Below are positions 2,268 through 42,280 of a stretch of DNA of 64,000 bases, one piece after another. Position 1 is the stretch's first letter; every line of letters begins with the position of its first letter. Origin of the DNA: Verrucomicrobium sp. BvORR106 (GTDB lineage: Bacteria; Verrucomicrobiota; Verrucomicrobiia; Verrucomicrobiales; Verrucomicrobiaceae). The notes under the pieces were generated by a model. The model saw nothing but the letters and a program-made list of their open reading frames with translations, was not told the DNA's origin and ran no database searches. The stretch covers positions 1-64,000 of the forward strand of contig NZ_BATR01000137.1 in NCBI RefSeq assembly GCF_000739655.1. The letters run 5' to 3'. A program made the position numbers and the translations under genes.

Positions 2268-2271
2268 GGGT

Positions 2272-2335
2272 CGGTGATTTAGTGATTCAGTAATTCAGTA
2301 AACCGGTAACTCAGCAGGCCAGTGAGTCGGTGGAT
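2272..2335 (+). repeat. Degenerate 8-bp-period tandem array, 8 units
   Basis: Eight consecutive octamers without any indel: CGGTGATT, TAGTGATT, CAGTAATT, CAGTAAAC, CGGTAACT, CAGCAGGC, CAGTGAGT, CGGTGGAT. The consensus is about CRGTRNNT. The array starts 5 nt after the DUF1501 stop codon and decays away from the gene. Confidence 0.85.
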
Positions 2336-2386
2336 CGCGCTTGGGACGGGAAACGCGTTAGGAAAAACTTCGGCCGCCTGAAGATA

Positions 2387-2457
2387 CTCCAACCCTCTCC
2401 GCTCCATCGGCAGGGTTGGAGTTCCGCGTTTACGCGGTCAGGACGCGCCACCCCTGA
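2387..2457 (+). repeat. Dispersed repeat family A, copy 1 (short)
   Basis: The copy starts with CCAACCCTCTCCGCTCC and then jumps to the conserved GGGTTGGAGTTCCGCG-TTTA-CGCGGTCAGGACG segment, ending CCCCTGAC. It lacks the middle third (GGACAGCCGGACTAC) present in the longer copies. Confidence 0.7.
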
Positions 2458-2497
2458 CGAACCAGACGGTCAGCACGAACAATGGCATTTGAACGTC

Positions 2498-2604
2498 ACC
2501 CCCTCCGCTCCCAACCCGGCTGGGGACAGCCGGACTACACCCTCCCTTCCGCAGCAGGGTTGGAGTACCGCATTTATGCGGCTCAGGACGCGCTGCCCCT
2601 GACG
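2498..2604 (+). repeat. Dispersed repeat family A, copy 2
   Basis: The unit begins CACCCCCTCCGCTCCCAACC, passes through GGACAGCCGGACTAC, and ends with GGGTTGGAGTACCGC, a loop, GCGG and a terminal CCCCTGAC. The core CCGCrTTTAyGCGG can form a hairpin. A shorter copy lies just upstream at about 2387-2457; other copies are at 22041-22144, 27744-27859 and 26894-26950. Confidence 0.75.
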
Positions 2605-2695
2605 TGGCATGCGGTAACACCGTCTATCAGCGATCAAACATCTCCCCACTCCGCTCTCACGCGGGGCTGGGAACCCCCGCCTCCTTTACTCCCGA

Positions 2696-2751
2696 GCACA
2701 CTGCCCCACGGATCTACTGAATTACTGAGCTACTGAATCACCGATTTACTG
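2696..2751 (-). repeat. Degenerate 8-bp-period tandem array overlapping a stop codon, 7 units
   Basis: Read on the minus strand: CAGTAAAT, CGGTGATT, CAGTAGCT, CAGTAATT, CAGTAGAT, CCGTGGGG, CAGTGTGC, in exact 8-bp register. The second unit contains the TGA stop of the glycosyltransferase gene, so the last residues of that protein (about SVNR) are encoded by the array. Confidence 0.85.
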
Positions 2752-4024
2752 AACTCAGTACGTCATCAAAATCCGCCGCCATCTTCTCCGCGCTAAACCG
2801 CGCCCGCGTATTCTCCCTCCCCTTCCGGCTCAACGCCGTGCGGTGCTCGTGATCCACCAGCACTTTTTCCAGCGTCTGGCTGAGGCTCTTCACGTCATCT
2901 GGATCGCACAACTCGCCACCTTGGGTAATATCCAACAACTCCGGGAAAGCACCATGACGGGGCTGGACGACGGGCAGACCTGCGGCCTGGGCCTCCACCA
3001 CATACAGCCCGAAGGCTTCGCCGTAGGTGGCGGGCACGGAAAAGACAGTGACCTCGTGTAGGAACTTAGTCTTCTCCTCGAAACTCACATTGGGCTCCCA
3101 AGTCACGCGATCCGCCAGACCGGCGGCAGCGAGCTTGGATTGCAGCCCTTCAATGTACTTGTCGTCCGCAGGGGTCTTGGCTCCGGCGATACGCAGCTTC
3201 ACGCCGGGTACGCTGCCGCGTCGGGCGAGTTCGATGAAAGCGTCAACCAAGGTCGTCAGCCCCTTGCCATGGATCATGCGGGCCAGGTAACCGATGGTGG
3301 GAACCTCCGGTTCGCGACGGTCATGCGACCAGCCCTCATAGTTCAGGCCGTTGTACACCACACTCACCCGCTCCGCAGGAACCGCAAGACGTTGCGCCAT
3401 GACCCTGGCGTAGAAGTCACTGGGGGAAATGAAGCGAGCCACGGACTGGGCGTTCTTCTGCATGAGATCCCAAGCCTGCGTGCGATAGGGCTCAGTGAGC
3501 GTGTCCAGAAACGAATCCTCCCCCTGAAGGGAGACCACCACGGGCGCTTTGACCCGACGGACCAGCGCAGGGGCCAATCCGATGAGCAGCGAGTTGGACA
3601 AGGAAATCACGTCGGGCTTGCCCTCAGTCTCCAGCCACTGGATGAGGCGATCCCACTCTGACCACTGACGCCCCTCCTCCCCCAGCAGGCTGCCCACGGT
3701 CATCTCCCCCAAGTCGCGGGCACTGGTCATGCCCATGAACCGCGAAGCCCAGCGCAGCAGATTCTCGCCATCCAGCCAGGTGCGCAGGAAACGCGGCAGG
3801 AACCGAAAGCCGGGCAGGCGCTGCTGCAGGTACAAGGAAACTCCCCCCACTTTCACTGACTGCTCAGGGTTCGCCTCGTCTGCATCCGTCATCAGGGGGA
3901 GGTAGAGCGGGATGATCATCGCATCGTGCCCCCGGGCTCGCAGCGCCTTGATGAGGGCGTTGTCCCGCAGACAGCTTCCGCAGTGAAAGGAACCGGTGCC
4001 AGGCGTGAGGTGAATGATGCGCAT
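2738..4024 (-). CDS. Glycosyltransferase family 4-type protein
   Basis: 428 residues from the ATG at 4024, which begins MRIIHLTPGTGSFHCGSCLRDN; the in-frame extension to 4129 is low-complexity and was not used. The N-terminal half matches the donor-independent lobe of GT-B glycosyltransferases (GSFHCGSCLRDNAL). The C-terminal half has the family 4 region: VVYNGLNYEGW, PTIGYLARMIHGKGLTTLVDAF and the E-x7-E nucleotide-sugar motif within EAFGLYVVEAQAAGLPVV. It likely transfers a sugar from an activated donor during surface polysaccharide or glycolipid synthesis; the substrate is unknown. No biosynthetic neighbours are present. The C-terminus runs into an octamer repeat array that supplies the stop codon. 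Confidence 0.88.
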   Translation of the reverse strand: MRIIHLTPGTGSFHCGSCLRDNALIKALRARGHDAMIIPLYLPLMTDADEANPEQSVKVGGVSLYLQQRLPGFRFLPRFLRTWLDGENLLRWASRFMGMTSARDLGEMTVGSLLGEEGRQWSEWDRLIQWLETEGKPDVISLSNSLLIGLAPALVRRVKAPVVVSLQGEDSFLDTLTEPYRTQAWDLMQKNAQSVARFISPSDFYARVMAQRLAVPAERVSVVYNGLNYEGWSHDRREPEVPTIGYLARMIHGKGLTTLVDAFIELARRGSVPGVKLRIAGAKTPADDKYIEGLQSKLAAAGLADRVTWEPNVSFEEKTKFLHEVTVFSVPATYGEAFGLYVVEAQAAGLPVVQPRHGAFPELLDITQGGELCDPDDVKSLSQTLEKVLVDHEHRTALSRKGRENTRARFSAEKMAADFDDVLSSVNR

Positions 4025-21497: not shown

Positions 21498-21818
21498 ATG
21501 GCATGGATCATCCTTCTGTTGGCCGGCATTTTTGAAATCGCCTGGACCATTGGCCTGAAATACAGCCAAGGCTTCACCAAGCTTGGCCCTTCGCTTTTGA
21601 CCGGCGCGGCGCTGATCATCAGTTTCGCGTTGTTGGGCAACGCCGTCCGCACCCTGCCGCTGGGCACCGCCTACGCGATCTGGACGGGCATCGGTGCCGT
21701 GGGGGCCATCATCGCGGGCATCGTGCTTTTCCACGAGCCTCTGACCCTGGCGCGTTGTTTATTCGCGCTCATGATCGTCGCCGGCATGGTCGGGCTGAAG
21801 TTTACCTCAGGGCAATGA
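21498..21818 (+). CDS. SMR-family exporter, guanidinium exporter (Gdx/SugE) type
   Basis: 106 residues with four transmembrane helices. The conserved membrane-embedded Glu is in IFEIAWTIGLKYSQGF, and GTAYAIWTGIGAVGA plus the late GLKFTSG are SugE/Gdx features rather than EmrE. Gdx proteins are dual-topology homodimers that export guanidinium in exchange for protons. The preceding two-hairpin guanidine-II riboswitch candidate independently supports guanidinium as substrate. No clear Shine-Dalgarno is visible (ACCTCTT precedes ATG), which would fit translational control by the leader. An octamer array begins 3 nt after the stop. Confidence 0.93.
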   Translation: MAWIILLLAGIFEIAWTIGLKYSQGFTKLGPSLLTGAALIISFALLGNAVRTLPLGTAYAIWTGIGAVGAIIAGIVLFHEPLTLARCLFALMIVAGMVGLKFTSGQ

Positions 21819-21821
21819 GTT

Positions 21822-21861
21822 CGGTAGTTCAGTAATCCGGTGGGTCTGTAAGTCGGTAGAC
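21822..21861 (+). repeat. Degenerate 8-bp-period tandem array, 5 units
   Basis: CGGTAGTT, CAGTAATC, CGGTGGGT, CTGTAAGT, CGGTAGAC in exact register, starting 4 nt after the exporter stop codon; a sixth weaker unit CTGGAGGC follows. Confidence 0.82.
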
Positions 21862-21892
21862 CTGGAGGCACCTCGATAACGTGGCGGGCGTC

Positions 21893-22023
21893 TGCCGTGG
21901 GGCCACCCAATGGGTCTACCGCTCCGCGGTAGGGGCTCCCGGCCTGCATTCCATGGGTTGCACTCGCTACGCTCGCTTCACCCATGGCTACGCATGGCGA
22001 ACCCTCCGGGTTCATGAGACAAC
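21893..22023 (+). repeat. Dispersed repeat family C, copy 1
   Basis: Contains GGGTCTACCGCTCCGCGGTA (a TACCGC-TCC-GCGGTA hairpin), CCATGGGTTGCACTCGCTAC, GCTCGCTTCACCCATGGCTA and CATGGCGAACCCTCCGGGTT followed by CATGAGA. CCATGGGT and ACCCATGG are complementary arms. The second copy is at 41856-41976. Confidence 0.8.
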
Positions 22024-22040
22024 ACATCCGGAGAGAGTCG

Positions 22041-22144
22041 CACCCCCTCCGCTCCCAACCCGGCTGGGACAGCCGGACTACATCATCCGTCTCGCACCGG
22101 GGTTGGAGTTCCGCGTTTACGCGGTCAGTACGCCCCCCCTGACA
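22041..22144 (+). repeat. Dispersed repeat family A, copy 3
   Basis: A full-length unit from CACCCCCTCCGCTCCCAACC through GGGACAGCCGGACTAC to GGGTTGGAGTTCCGCG-TTTA-CGCGGTCAG and CCCCCTGAC. It follows the family C copy by 17 bp. Confidence 0.8.
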
Positions 22145-22181
22145 TAGCAAGCAGTGATGACAACCATCCACATAATGACGT

Positions 22182-22237
22182 CATCACCGCTCCACTGAAT
22201 TACTGTCCTACCGAATTACTGATTTACCGAATCACCG
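22182..22237 (-). repeat. Degenerate 8-bp-period tandem array overlapping a stop codon, 7 units
   Basis: Minus strand: CGGTGATT, CGGTAAAT, CAGTAATT, CGGTAGGA, CAGTAATT, CAGTGGAG, CGGTGATG, no indels. The first unit holds the TGA stop of the PA14-like gene, in the same position as the unit that stops the glycosyltransferase gene. Confidence 0.85.
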
Positions 22238-23676
22238 CCCTCCTGCGCGCATCCGGTCGAGCGGCGACTCGTCCATCATGGACTTCTTCACTTCGAACAC
22301 CGGGATGTTCTCCAGTTCCAGTTCAAACTCGGGCTTGGTATTGATGAACTGCTTCATGCGCTCGATATCACCCACATCCGGCTTGGTGGTGGTAAAAACG
22401 GGCAGAATAGGGCTGCCATCCGGCCGTTCGCGGTATTTGCCTTTCTTGCTCTGCACGAGCAGCAGGCCACCCACGCGACCCCCGGGACGCTCGCCCACCA
22501 CAATGTCAATCTTGGCAGGGCCGGTGAAGCGCACCCACTTGCCTGCATAGCAGTGCTGAGTACCGGTCAAGACGGGCGGGCCGCCAAAGGCCTGCTTGAT
22601 CTCGGGATCAGGAGTCTGCACGCCGTGATTGCCGATGTTCAACCACGAACCGTCAAACACGCACTTGTTGTTGATGTAGATCACCAGGGCGTCGTCAAAG
22701 TTCCCGACGAAGCGCCACTCGCCGTTCGTGGGCGGGTTGATGACGCCGGTGTAATGCACGTACCAGCACGGGGCTGCACTTCTTTTTCCACGTTGAAGGC
22801 CTTGGGCCCCTCCTCTGCCGCCATGTACGGCACGGTCAGGAAGGTGAAGCTCATCTGCTGGCTGGCGTGGTAATACTCCTTCATCGCCGTAGGGGCGAAC
22901 TTCTTCTCAGCCGCCTTGGCAATGATGGCCGCGTAGTTGTTCGGGTTGTAGTCAATGGGCTTGCGGTCGCCATCCTGCTTCAGGTCATAAAGCGTGCCTG
23001 CCAGGCCATCCCCACCCCGCTTGCCGAAGAAGGTGACTGGCGCAAACCCGCTCACCCCGCCGATACCCTGACCGGTGCCGAAACCGCCACCAGCCCCAGC
23101 CTTGCCAAAACCACCACTACCGGCCATGCCACCCATGAGGCTGCTCGTATCCGGCATAGAGAGGCTGTCCGCCGGGGCGTCTGGCAGGGAGATCGCCGCC
23201 GTGTTGTTCTGGGAAACAATCCGCCGGATCGGCATGGACTTGTTCAAGGTGGTGCGCTTTTTCTGCTGCACTTGCTGGCTGAGGGCCTTGGAGGCCTCCT
23301 GACCCGCCTTGCCACCGCCTGGCAGGAAGTCCACCTTCTTCTCCTGCACGATGGTCTGCACCATGAAGTAGGCCGCCACCAGGATGGCCACGTGAATAAG
23401 CAGGCTCAGCGCGAGGGATCCGCCACCCACCTTGCGCCAGTAGCGGACGACCGCATTTGGCTGCTTGGTGGGGGCGATGTGTGTGGCACCATGGAAATGA
23501 ACCGGGCCCGCCGGGGCGGTCACCACCACCTGCTGGGGAGCTTGCGGCACTGGGGCGGCAGACTGGACCGGGGCTGAGGGGGCAGCTGACTCCGGGACGA
23601 GGCCGGAGACGGTTCCAGAGAGGCTTTGGATCTTGACGGGCCGGGAGGCTGGCGAGGGTGAGTTCTGTGAGTCCAT
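22232..23676 (-). pseudogene. TonB-like-anchored PA14-like protein, frameshifted paralogue 1
   Basis: Two overlapping frames make one ~482-residue protein matching the intact paralogue at 25103-26581. The N-terminal frame reads to GPKAFNVEKEVQPR and then loses homology; the next frame resumes at WYVHYTGVINPP. Comparison shows one missing C on the plus strand near 22767 (GTACCAGCACGG where GTACCAGCCACGG is expected). The N-terminus has a Pro/Ala-rich cytoplasmic stretch, one membrane helix with SLLIHVAIL (Ser91, His95), the shared EKKVDFLPGGG segment, a Gly-rich linker and a PA14-like domain near the break. It could be a real lesion or a sequencing error. The C-terminus ends in an octamer array. 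Confidence 0.8.
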
Positions 23677-28136: not shown

Positions 28137-29831
28137 ATGTCCTTTTCCCTTACCGATCTCCTGGCCCAGACAGCTACTGAAGCTGGCTGCACCCAGTCCC
28201 AACTCTGCCGCCAGACTCTGGAGGAAGCGGTTTCCCGCCGTAGTTCCCTGGTGGAAGCCCTGCTGGACTCCAATCTGGTTGATGAAGACCTCTTCATTGA
28301 GCACCTCGGCCGGTCATTGAGCCTGCCGTTCACCTCGGACGAAAGCCTGGAGCCTGCGGACAATCTGCACAATCGCTTCCCTGCCAAGCTGGCCCTGCGC
28401 CACCGGGTGTACCCGGCGCACTTGAGCGGAGCTGACCTGACCCTGCTGACCTACGATCCCTTCAATCTGGATGCCCGGCAAGCCGTGGGCCAGGAGGTGC
28501 GCAAGCGCATCACCTGGGGTCTGGCCACGCGCCGTCGCATCCTGGAAGCCCTGCACCAGGGCTATGGCGTGGGGGCTGAGAACTTCGAGGAGTTGCTGGA
28601 AGGCCGCGATGGCGACTCCAGCCACGACGACATGAAGCAAGAGGTGAACGTCCTCGACGAGGCGGATGAGGAGGCGACGGTCATGAACTTCGTGAACCAG
28701 ATCTTCCGCGAAGCCTTGAAGGAACGGGCCACCGACATTCACGTGGAGCCTCTGGAGCGCGACCTGCGCATCCGCTACCGCATCGACGGCAAGCTGCAGG
28801 AAGTCCCGGTGCCGCCCAACATGCGGCTGCTGCAGGCCTCCCTCATCTCGCGCCTCAAGATCATGGCGCACCTGGATATCGCCGAGCGCCGGCTGCCCCA
28901 GGATGGTCGTATCAACCTCGAACTCGATGGCGACCCGATCGACGTCCGCGTGGCAACCATCCCCTCCGTCAATGGCGAGAGCGTGAGCCTTCGTCTGCTC
29001 ACCCGCCAGAAGTTCGACTTTGAGAAACTGGGCCTCACACCCCACATCGAGACCAGCATTCGTCGCCTGCTCGGCTCACCCAACGGCATCATTCTCGTGA
29101 CGGGCCCCACCGGAAGCGGGAAGAGCACCACGCTCTATACCTTCCTCCGGCAACTCAACACCAAAGAACGCCGCATCGTCACCATCGAGGATCCGGTGGA
29201 AAACAAGCTGGATGGCGTGATCCAGATCGCCGTGAAGCCGGAGATCAACCTCACCTTCGCTGCGGGTCTGCGCAGCATCCTGCGCGGCGACCCCAACGTC
29301 GTGATGGTGGGGGAAATGCGAGACCTGGAGACCACCGAGATTGCGATCCGCGCCGCCCTCACCGGCCACTTGGTCTTCTCCACCCTGCACACCAACGATG
29401 CCGTTGGCGGCATCAGCCGCCTGCTGGACATGGGCATCGAGCCCTTCCTTATTTCCTCTTCCGTCCGCGCCTTCCAGGCCCAGCGGCTCGTGCGCACGCT
29501 CTGTCCCTTCTGCAAGCAGCCCACCCAGCTTGAGAAGAGCTACCTGGAAGCCATCGGATTCCCCCTCTCTGAAGCAGACAAACTCCGCCGTCCCGAAGGC
29601 TGCCGCCAGTGCCGTGGCACCGGCTACCAGGGCCGTCTCGCCATCATGGAGATCTGCGAAGTCACCTCCCAGATGGGTGAGAAGATCAACCTCCGCGCGC
29701 CCATCGCCGAACTCAAGGCCCAGGCCTTCAAGGACGGCATGATCCCCATGCGCCAGTACGGCTTCATGAAAGCCATCCAGGGCGTCACGACCGTGGAGGA
29801 GGTAATGACGGTGACGGCAAGCTCAGATTGA
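28137..29831 (+). CDS. gspE: Type II secretion ATPase GspE
   Basis: 564 residues. The N-terminal MshEN-type domain (LLAQTATEAGCTQSQLCRQT) is followed by the secretion ATPase core: GPTGSGKSTTLYTF (Walker A), ERRIVTIEDPVE (Asp box), RGDPNVVMVGEMRDLETTEIA (Walker B region), and a late His box (TGHLVFSTLHTNDA). Paired CPFC and CRQC motifs form the Zn-binding tetracysteine typical of GspE/PilB. It powers pseudopilus assembly from the cytoplasmic face of the inner membrane. PilB of type IV pili is the alternative, but the following gspF-M and secretin genes favour type II secretion. Confidence 0.94.
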   Translation: MSFSLTDLLAQTATEAGCTQSQLCRQTLEEAVSRRSSLVEALLDSNLVDEDLFIEHLGRSLSLPFTSDESLEPADNLHNRFPAKLALRHRVYPAHLSGADLTLLTYDPFNLDARQAVGQEVRKRITWGLATRRRILEALHQGYGVGAENFEELLEGRDGDSSHDDMKQEVNVLDEADEEATVMNFVNQIFREALKERATDIHVEPLERDLRIRYRIDGKLQEVPVPPNMRLLQASLISRLKIMAHLDIAERRLPQDGRINLELDGDPIDVRVATIPSVNGESVSLRLLTRQKFDFEKLGLTPHIETSIRRLLGSPNGIILVTGPTGSGKSTTLYTFLRQLNTKERRIVTIEDPVENKLDGVIQIAVKPEINLTFAAGLRSILRGDPNVVMVGEMRDLETTEIAIRAALTGHLVFSTLHTNDAVGGISRLLDMGIEPFLISSSVRAFQAQRLVRTLCPFCKQPTQLEKSYLEAIGFPLSEADKLRRPEGCRQCRGTGYQGRLAIMEICEVTSQMGEKINLRAPIAELKAQAFKDGMIPMRQYGFMKAIQGVTTVEEVMTVTASSD

Positions 29832-29854
29832 ACACTACAGGAGATGAAGAACGG

Positions 29855-29882
29855 GGTAAGTGGTGAGAGGTAAATGGTAAGC
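29855..29882 (+). repeat. Heptamer tandem array, left flank of the inserted four-helix gene
   Basis: GGTAAGT, GGTGAGA, GGTAAAT, GGTAAGC: four 7-bp units with consensus GGTRAGT, 24 bp after the gspE stop. The inverse array lies at 30327-30362. Confidence 0.82.
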
Positions 29883-29894
29883 AGTGGAATTCTC

Positions 29895-30323
29895 ATGGAC
29901 TTGGAAGCAACAGGGACAACAAAGCGTGCAGGTGGATTTGCAGAATCGTTCGGCGATCTGGAAGTCTACAAGCTCGCGTTTGCCCTGCAGCTCGACATCT
30001 ACAAAGCCAGCCGCGCCTGGCCTCGCGAGGAGACGTACGCTCTGACGGATCAGATCCGTCGCAGCAGTCGCTCTGTGGGAGCTTGCATTGCAGAGGCTTG
30101 GGGAAAGCGCCGTTACGAAGCCCACTTTTACAGCAAGCTGTCCGATGCAGACTCGGAGTTGAATGAGACTCTGCATTGGCTCCGCACCGCGTTCACCTGC
30201 CAGTACATCGCATTGGAAGAATGCGAGCCCTTTGCCGACCGCATCAAATCGATTGGAAAGATGCTCAACCGCATGATGGCGAATGCCTCTTCTTTCTGCC
30301 TGCCGAATCCCTATCGTGCCTAG
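29895..30323 (+). CDS. Four-helix-bundle protein (23S rRNA intervening-sequence type)
   Basis: 142 residues from ATG 29895. FGDLEVYKLAFALQLDIYKA, RSSRSVGACIAEAWGKRRYE and a late ADRIKSIGKMLNRMM match the family named after the protein encoded in intervening sequences of 23S rRNA genes (S23 family), which folds as a pentameric four-helix bundle; its role is unknown. Here it stands between gspE and gspF, where no such gene is normal, and is bordered by heptamer arrays in inverted orientation. That suggests insertion as a cassette. The operon is not interrupted on the coding strand, so downstream genes can still be transcribed. Confidence 0.9.
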   Translation: MDLEATGTTKRAGGFAESFGDLEVYKLAFALQLDIYKASRAWPREETYALTDQIRRSSRSVGACIAEAWGKRRYEAHFYSKLSDADSELNETLHWLRTAFTCQYIALEECEPFADRIKSIGKMLNRMMANASSFCLPNPYRA

Positions 30324-30326
30324 CGC

Positions 30327-30362
30327 CATCACCACTTACCCACCTACCACTCACCACTTACC
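30327..30362 (-). repeat. Heptamer tandem array, right flank of the inserted four-helix gene
   Basis: Read on the minus strand: GGTAAGT, GGTGAGT, GGTAGGT, one extra G, GGTAAGT, GGTGATG. It is the inverse of the left array, begins 4 nt after the four-helix stop codon and ends 6 nt before the gspF start, so it covers the ribosome-binding region. Confidence 0.82.
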
Positions 30363-30368
30363 GGACTG

Positions 30369-31604
30369 ATGCCTGCTTTCGCCTACACTGCCCTCGACAC
30401 CTCTGGCAAACAGGTCACGGGATCGCTTGCCGTCTCGACCCGGGCGGAGGTGTACCGTCAACTCGAGTCGCAGCGACTGACGCCGATCAAGGTGGCAGAG
30501 GAAACGACTGCGGCAGCGAAAGCGGCCAAGGAGGAGGCGAAGGACACCTCCCCCGCCCCGGTGTTGAAGCGGGCGCAGTTGATTCTCTTCACCGAGGAAC
30601 TGGCCGACCTCATGGATGGCGGCTTGCAGCTGGAGCAGGCGCTGCGCGTGATGCATGAACGCCAGGAGTCTCCCGTGCTGCGAAAGGTGAGCGGTCGCAT
30701 CCGGGAGCAGTTGCGAGAAGGTGCCACCTTCTCCAAGGCACTGCTGCAAGCCTCGCCCAGCTTTGATGAGATGTACTGCAACCTCGCCACAGCTGGTGAG
30801 GTGTCAGGTTCCCTGCCCCAGATCCTGCGACGTCTCTCCGCCAGCATCACCCAGATGCATGAGCTGCAGAGCCGCGTGGTCGCGGCCCTGGTGTATCCCG
30901 CCTTCATGTTTGGCGCGCTCATCATGCTGCTGATCGTATTCAGCACCGTGTTGCTACCCGGCTTTGTGGACATGTTGTCCAAGAGCCGCACGAAGTTGCC
31001 CTTCGTGATGGAGATGCTGGGCACCTTCTCAGACCTGGTCAAACACTGGTGGTGGCTCGCGCTGGCCGTCATTGTCTCTTCCGTACTGCTCTTCCGCTCC
31101 TACATCGCCAAGGAGTCAGGGCGGATGTGGTGGGATCGCGCGAAGCTGAAAATCCCCCTTTTTGGCCCCGTACTCACGGCCCGATTCAACGCCCAGTTCG
31201 CCGCCTCTCTGGGGAACTTGGTGAACAACGGTATCCCCCTGCTCAACGCGCTCAAGCTTACCGCCAAGTCCACGGCGAATGTGTTCCTCCGTGGCCTCCT
31301 CAACCAGGCGGCTGGGATCATCGGGGAGGGCGTTTCTCTCTCGTCTGCGCTGCGCAAGGTCGGCCACCTTCCCGTCCTGCTGGTGGACATGGTCGCCATG
31401 GGCGAGCAGACCGGTCGCCTGGGGAAATCGCTCGAAAAGATTGCTGCCCGTTATGACAAGGAGCTCGATGGCAGGGTCAAACGAGTGACAGCTCTCATCA
31501 CGCCCATCGTTTTGGTCATCCTGTTCGTTGTGGTGGGTGTCGTCGCCATCTCCATCGTCACTGCCATCTTCGAAACCATGACCAGCGTGCGAGCCAGATC
31601 CTGA
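30369..31604 (+). CDS. gspF: Type II secretion inner membrane protein GspF
   Basis: 411 residues, the normal length. The N-terminal MPAFAYTALDTSGKQVTGSL and SRAEVYRQLESQ are characteristic. Two duplicated T2SSF domains (FTEELADLMDGGLQLEQALR and FAASLGNLVNNGIPLLNALK) alternate with three membrane helices, the last near the C-terminus (ITPIVLVILFVVVGVVAISI). GspF is the platform protein that connects the GspE ATPase to the growing pseudopilus. Its translation start is only 6 nt from a heptamer repeat array. Confidence 0.95.
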   Translation: MPAFAYTALDTSGKQVTGSLAVSTRAEVYRQLESQRLTPIKVAEETTAAAKAAKEEAKDTSPAPVLKRAQLILFTEELADLMDGGLQLEQALRVMHERQESPVLRKVSGRIREQLREGATFSKALLQASPSFDEMYCNLATAGEVSGSLPQILRRLSASITQMHELQSRVVAALVYPAFMFGALIMLLIVFSTVLLPGFVDMLSKSRTKLPFVMEMLGTFSDLVKHWWWLALAVIVSSVLLFRSYIAKESGRMWWDRAKLKIPLFGPVLTARFNAQFAASLGNLVNNGIPLLNALKLTAKSTANVFLRGLLNQAAGIIGEGVSLSSALRKVGHLPVLLVDMVAMGEQTGRLGKSLEKIAARYDKELDGRVKRVTALITPIVLVILFVVVGVVAISIVTAIFETMTSVRARS

Positions 31605-41988: not shown

Positions 41989-42049
41989 CCGCACGCCGCC
42001 TCGCCTGGCGCCCTACGCCGCACGCCGCCTCGCCTGGCGCCCTACGCCG
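41989..42049 (+). repeat. Two tandem copies of a 29-bp unit
   Basis: CCGCACGCCGCCTCGCCTGG-CGCCCTACG is repeated head to tail directly before the octamer array, with a third truncated start (CCGCGCGCC). Confidence 0.75.
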
Positions 42050-42075
42050 CGCGCCCCTCTCACTGCCCGCACCGG

Positions 42076-42270
42076 ACGCACCGACGCACCGGACGCACCG
42101 ACGCACCGACGCACCGACGCACCGACGCACCGACGCACCGACGCACCGACGCACCGACGCACCGACGCACCGACGCACCGACGCACCGACGCACCGACGC
42201 ACCGACGCACCGACGCACCGACGCACCGACGCACCGACGCACCGACGCACCGGACGCACCGGACGCACCG
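42076..42270 (-). repeat. 24-copy octamer array (CGGTGCGT on the minus strand)
   Basis: On the plus strand the unit is ACGCACCG. Twenty copies run without a single mismatch or indel from 42093 to 42252; two more precede and two follow, each set off by one extra G. Read from the adjacent minus-strand gene, the unit CGGTGCGT fits the CRGTRNNT consensus and 8-bp spacing of the degenerate arrays elsewhere. Confidence 0.95.
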
Positions 42271-42280
42271 ACTCCCCCCC

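Follow-up and report, generated by a model that had tools for sequence, protein, structure and literature searches.

Inverted short tandem arrays as apparent borders of IVP-gene inserts in bacterial operons

Our analysis of a 64,000-nucleotide stretch of DNA from Verrucomicrobium sp. BvORR106 (contig NZ_BATR01000137.1, positions 1 to 64,000; hereafter, the window) revealed a cassette of ~510 bp, in which a four-helix-bundle gene of the family known from 23S rRNA intervening sequences (IVS), here called IVP, stands between a left array of short repeats and an inverted right array, at a junction within a type II secretion operon. Beyond this single case, IVP-bearing inserts appear, from a comparison of their flanks, to share a recognisable general anatomy at most of the loci sampled in many bacterial groups. 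We consider it probable that IVP genes across bacteria reside mostly on one class of small element, with inverted short-tandem ends whose element-private unit is alike at both ends, located in operon junctions and in 23S rRNA, and with ends and relics that supply part of the heptamer-repeat excess long observed in bacterial genomes. For the window feature itself, the account toward which we lean is that of an IVS-type element within an mRNA operon, the ends of which would pair into a terminal stem.

The earlier note on this DNA had described inward GGTRAGT-type arrays flanking a 23S-IVP/four-helix gene between gspE and gspF, and the sequence, the alignment of the arrays, and the PF05635 profile match all bear this description out (Table 1). 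Specifically, the left array aligned to the reverse complement of the right one with a Smith-Waterman (SW) score of 33, a value matched at none of 4,824 window positions of the same geometry and in none of 5,000 shuffles. Profile searches placed the gene in PF05635 (E=1e-29) and TIGR02436, above both curated cut-offs (103.3 bits versus 33.8, and 97.2 versus 24), and its protein has relatives in the PDB (2RLD and 2GSC, the latter being XCC0516). A longer reading frame opens at ATG 29874, which falls within the left array; translation more likely starts at ATG 29895. The IVP gene is the sole gene between the arrays, where no transposase, recombinase, or reverse transcriptase was found; the right array ends 6 bp upstream of the gspF ATG, and gspG comes next after gspF. 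In silico folding of the whole unit has the arrays form a closing stem (z=-2.8), which is weak evidence, because inverted repeats always fold. Eight further genes of the same family accompany this one in the genome (8.7 Mb, 209 contigs), making nine PF05635 genes above the cut-off.

Table 1. Coordinates of the cassette, its host-operon neighbors, and two IVP-less array units in the window
Feature	Position	Strand	Remarks
gspE, upstream host-operon gene	28137..29831	+	T2SSE E=5.9e-131
Left terminal array	29853..29886	+	inward GGTRAGT-type heptamers, ~4-5 units; GGGGTAAGTGGTGAGAGGTAAATGGTAAGCAGTG; array scan score 25.3
IVP / four-helix-bundle gene	29895..30323	+	PF05635, TIGR02436
Right terminal array	30329..30362	-	inverse of left array; reverse complement GGTAAGTGGTGAGTGGTAGGTGGGTAAGTGGTGA
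gspF, downstream host-operon gene	30369..31604	+	T2SSF E=2.2e-49
Non-coding unit, no IVP	2269..2755	.	inverted octamer arrays 2269-2330 / 2714-2755, REP-like palindromes
Second non-coding unit, no IVP	21815..22240	.	inverted octamer arrays, REP-like palindromes

A search of 57 genomes found IVP genes in 51, and 100 distinct loci from the genome of the window and about 50 related genomes (the near set) were examined by aligning 300 bp of left flank to the reverse-complemented right flank. Arm scores had a median of 38.5, versus 18 for partner-swapped flanks, and 87 of the 100 loci reached at least 26, the 99th percentile of the swapped flanks, in the inverted orientation, versus 16 of 100 in the direct orientation. 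Under the same test, none of 26 ParE toxin genes and none of 29 gspF genes did so (0/55 overall; Fisher p=8e-30), and these controls rule out the arrays being general gene flanks; with the ParE flank shifted outward past the antitoxin gene, 4 of 26 reached the threshold, taking the best of two tries each. In a wide set of loci, which is a non-random sample made up of the best matches to one alignment, 51 of 80 across many phyla scored above the 99th percentile obtained with swapped flanks. Convincing arms were lacking at 13/100 near-set and 29/80 wide-set loci. Among the IVP copies on cyanobacterial plasmids, four of the five examined had such arms, of the AGCAGGGG type, with low scores (30-32) at L305 and L309. 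On two different Nostoc plasmids (L308 and L309), the IVP cassette lies immediately 5' of a tyrosine recombinase gene. The proposal that inverted arrays border an IVP-centred unit was thus largely right, given 87/100 IVP loci versus 0/55 controls; the earlier note had further suggested looking for the same heptamer pair around other four-helix genes, and here inverted arrays were indeed found at those 87 loci, but each element has its own unit.

The tandem period is mostly 7 bp, with 8, 10, and 11 bp also occurring, and the unit varies by element (GTTGATG, GTTCTTG, AGTAATC, AGACAATC, GTTTGCAGTG, and others) while being common to both ends of any one of them. The expectation that other four-helix copies would carry the same pair therefore failed, the unit being private to each element, and a single heptamer serving every IVP is ruled out. 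The arms of L054 and L166 are identical, those of L150 match near-perfectly across ~80 bp, and at site C86 (L137, L150, and L161), the plain heptamer gives way to a longer unit containing nested palindromes (GTTGAGGCGCTTCGCTGG). Read inward, the left arm is richer in G than in C at 78 of 87 loci. Of 101 same-site pairs of orthologues, 95 showed a closer match between the two arms of one element than between corresponding arms of the two elements; with arms delimited by their own alignment, this test favors the within-element score, and its pairs are non-independent. The two arms of one element appear to evolve in concert. Differences between the arms showed no bias toward sense-RNA G.U pairs (65 versus 94 in the near set, and 48 versus 59 in the wide set), and the idea that such a bias would reveal a sense-RNA helix is unsupported in either set. 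Hence, there is no visible sign of wobble-tolerant selection on an RNA helix, which leaves room for a role of the arrays as DNA ends.

The gspE-gspF junction was surveyed in 24 genomes with gspE near gspF, the genome of the window included. IVP occupied the junction in six, and array-only remnants were found in two (L080 and L083, with both arrays and no IVP gene); nine held inserts of two small genes (L085, L087, L091, L092, L094, L096, L098, L102, and L104), six were tight (3-52 bp), and one had a 1.1 kb gap. In those tested with Pfam, the two-gene inserts consisted of an addiction-module antitoxin (PF09720) and a ParE toxin (PF05016), and the junction therefore accepts small genes unrelated to IVP. 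All three congeners in which the locus was found were occupied. The statement that this place normally holds no such gene is only partly right, given the six junctions with IVP and the two with array remnants. The comparison of junctions with and without the gene came out in favor of the border idea, in that IVP-less relatives were mostly array-free and tight, or had other genes present.

Turnover is most apparent at five sites common to three congeneric genomes, where identity is mostly 90-97% (range, 86-98%) for the neighboring genes but often just 61-82% for IVP, and the unit may differ entirely. At gspE-gspF, the dS of gspF is ~0.5 in both comparisons, while that of IVP is 0.25 between G000 and G003 and saturated between G000 and G001, which points to one lineage having had its element replaced, with an extreme local rate as the formal alternative. 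The IVP changes are concentrated at third codon positions, and dN/dS is 0.01-0.12 where dS is unsaturated; the protein is therefore under purifying selection. In-place hypermutation of IVP as the source of fixed-site divergence is disfavored by these third-position changes and by the synonymous saturation. IVP lineages group by site (19 label changes, versus a least possible 14 and 49.6 when shuffled), and the array period tracks the IVP clade (11 changes, versus 26 when shuffled, with a shuffled minimum of 22), two patterns that are partly confounded. At three orthologous sites in the genus, IVP is present in some genomes and absent in others, as gain or loss alike would produce, and three IVP-less sites in the genus retain a one-sided array relic that matches the arrays found in orthologues with the gene.

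Nowhere did two sites carry near-identical IVP copies, the highest cross-site identity among those listed being 79%; likewise, no recent transposition copies were found among the IVP loci compared, and no clear target duplication was seen in the comparison of sites. Because the cassette lacks a movement enzyme and recent copies are absent, we do not claim active transposition. Support for the “mobile unit” of the earlier note is indirect: at fixed sites, the element differs precisely between otherwise near-identical neighbors, and some IVP-less sites bear array relics; its mobility fits less well with the lack of recent copies and with lineages that keep to their sites. Arrays at empty sites, which had been named as evidence against the arrays marking the borders, were found at five IVP-less sites, but three of these are the one-sided relics matching occupied orthologues. 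Gene loss from an array-bounded unit would explain the relics better than would pre-existing arrays.

Both neighbors are co-directional with IVP at 77 of 80 decidable near-set loci (31 of 34 independent sites), as called from codon usage, versus 5 of 13 for the ParE control (p=2e-6); a cruder call from ORF length gave 42 of 44 in the wide set. Several of the compared sites have a left array that touches the stop codon of the upstream gene and a right array that stops shortly 5' of the next start codon. An Rfam search of 20 wide-set loci found no rRNA host. At L310, on an Azospirillum lipoferum plasmid, IVP lies within a genuine 23S rRNA gene (Rfam LSU_rRNA_bacteria, 2596 bits), between heptamer-built arms of 36 bases, 31 of which match (arm TCAGAGGACGGATGACAGAGGACGGAGGACAG), an inverted arrangement in the style of the window element. 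This one example would tie the operon cassettes to the classic 23S IVS. In the available part of a report on Coxiella, the 23S IVS has complementary ends and an S23 ORF and is excised by RNase III (PMC4990558). Such IVSs with an S23/IVP ORF, in Leptospira, Coxiella, and others, resemble the gspE-gspF element in gene family, in the layout of one IVP ORF enclosed by complementary ends, and in sense orientation. The window element differs in that its host is a protein-coding operon and its arms are short tandem arrays of an element-private unit; since it is inserted between gspE and gspF, and not in a 23S or 16S rRNA gene, we call it IVS-like rather than a 23S IVS.

Inverted arrays are not exclusive to IVP genes. 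The window holds two non-coding units of this kind, both with REP-like palindromes GTTGGAGTTCCGCGTTTACGCGG and with the left array close behind an apparent upstream stop codon. Three inverted pairs, one with IVP and two without, emerged from a stricter scan of 464 kb, which undercounts, as it missed the gspE-gspF pair of the window itself. Hidden IVP genes do not account for the IVP-less pairs: those tested gave no IVP profile match and held REP-like palindromes instead. REP-like palindromes (CCGCCTTTAGGCGG with TTGGAGT) also lie beside or between heptamer arrays at L018, L045, and L267, and occur in G003 at a site where two relatives carry an IVP element. Small array-bounded non-coding units thus exist alongside the IVP-bearing ones, a likeness to MITEs and REP elements; unlike these, IVP units end in short tandem arrays with varying units rather than in a fixed terminal inverted repeat. 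Elsewhere in the window, an 8-bp tandem array (CGCACCGA, ~25 copies, 97% matches) at 42068-42272 adjoins a 29-bp repeat at 41989-42059.

Co-direction, the location at operon junctions, and the 23S case together lead us to favor an RNA-level, IVS-type element. Sense-oriented and placed between two cistrons, the element would presumably be co-transcribed with gspE and gspF, and in silico folding predicts that, in the transcript, the two arrays pair as a terminal stem enclosing the IVP message. By analogy with the 23S IVS, RNase III would cut this stem, freeing the IVP message and parting gspE from gspF. Short tandem units would keep the arms pairable in several registers, and arm-to-arm copying or selection for pairing may keep the arms alike in concert. 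The IVP protein probably binds the RNA or the ends of its own element. Comparison of sites shows that the elements undergo turnover in fixed positions and that the gene can be lost, with array relics staying behind.

It is possible, if rather unlikely, that the cassette is instead a mobile or homing-like element acting at the DNA level, with arrays that serve as terminal repeats recognised as DNA by an IVP ring and an enzyme supplied in trans, and with new elements taking the place of older ones between the same two cistrons. The shared inward G-rich strand of both ends (78/87 loci), the array period that follows the IVP clade, and the arms without wobble bias would all suit such an element, as would the five sites where flanks mostly 90-97% identical enclose IVPs that are often 61-82% identical, with differing units, and the saturation of IVP synonymous sites against a gspF dS of ~0.5. 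However, IVP is the only gene in the cassette, and to our knowledge no catalytic site is known in its protein; neither a clear target duplication nor near-identical IVP copies at separate sites were seen, IVP lineages keep to their sites, and a DNA element has no need of so strong a sense orientation.

We regard it as improbable that IVP is an ordinary operon-resident host gene with the arrays as a local regulatory or insulating hairpin rather than element ends, for its patchy presence, the wholesale change of unit between near-identical relatives, the one-sided relics after gene loss, and the same anatomy within a 23S rRNA gene speak against it, despite the strong purifying selection on IVP, its site fidelity across genera, and its sense orientation in operons. 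Scarcely credible, finally, is a chance flanking of the gene by independent intergenic simple repeats. Inverted pairs without IVP do exist, and matches to the GGTRAGT-type heptamer are common in the genome (122 at ≤2 mismatches, versus 93 for a reversed pattern that is a weak control, as it resembles the heptamer itself); yet the contrast between IVP loci and controls (87/100 versus 0/55) refutes this as a general account, and the orientation is inverted, with just 16/100 direct matches and with mismatched arms in partner-swapped flanks.

The favored IVS-type element can also be set beside other known systems. The accessory protein Avd of diversity-generating retroelements is a homologous four-helix bundle (bAvd E=8.7e-8, DivGenRetAVD E=5.7e-10), but the window gene scores under both Avd/bAvd cut-offs (33.1 versus 40 bits, and 39.4 versus 80), and IVP stands alone between the arrays. 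Seven-base tandem units, mostly intergenic, are described in the available parts of reports on Xanthomonas (GGGAATC, with 70-75 convergent inverted pairs; PMC4692102), Beggiatoaceae (TAACTGA; PMC4679880), and Nostoc, where the P6b stem of the trnL intron is made of heptamers (PMC4476775). In those parts, no IVP link is stated for these repeats, whereas the window arrays bound an IVP gene, and no report connecting heptamer arrays with IVP genes was found in the accessible portions of the open-access literature. IVP genes have so far had no settled role and no recognised element borders. Defined ends make RNase III cutting, IVP binding, and the joint change of both ends testable, and some of the heptamer repeats noted as over-represented in Xanthomonas, Nostoc, and other genomes may have originated as ends of IVP elements.
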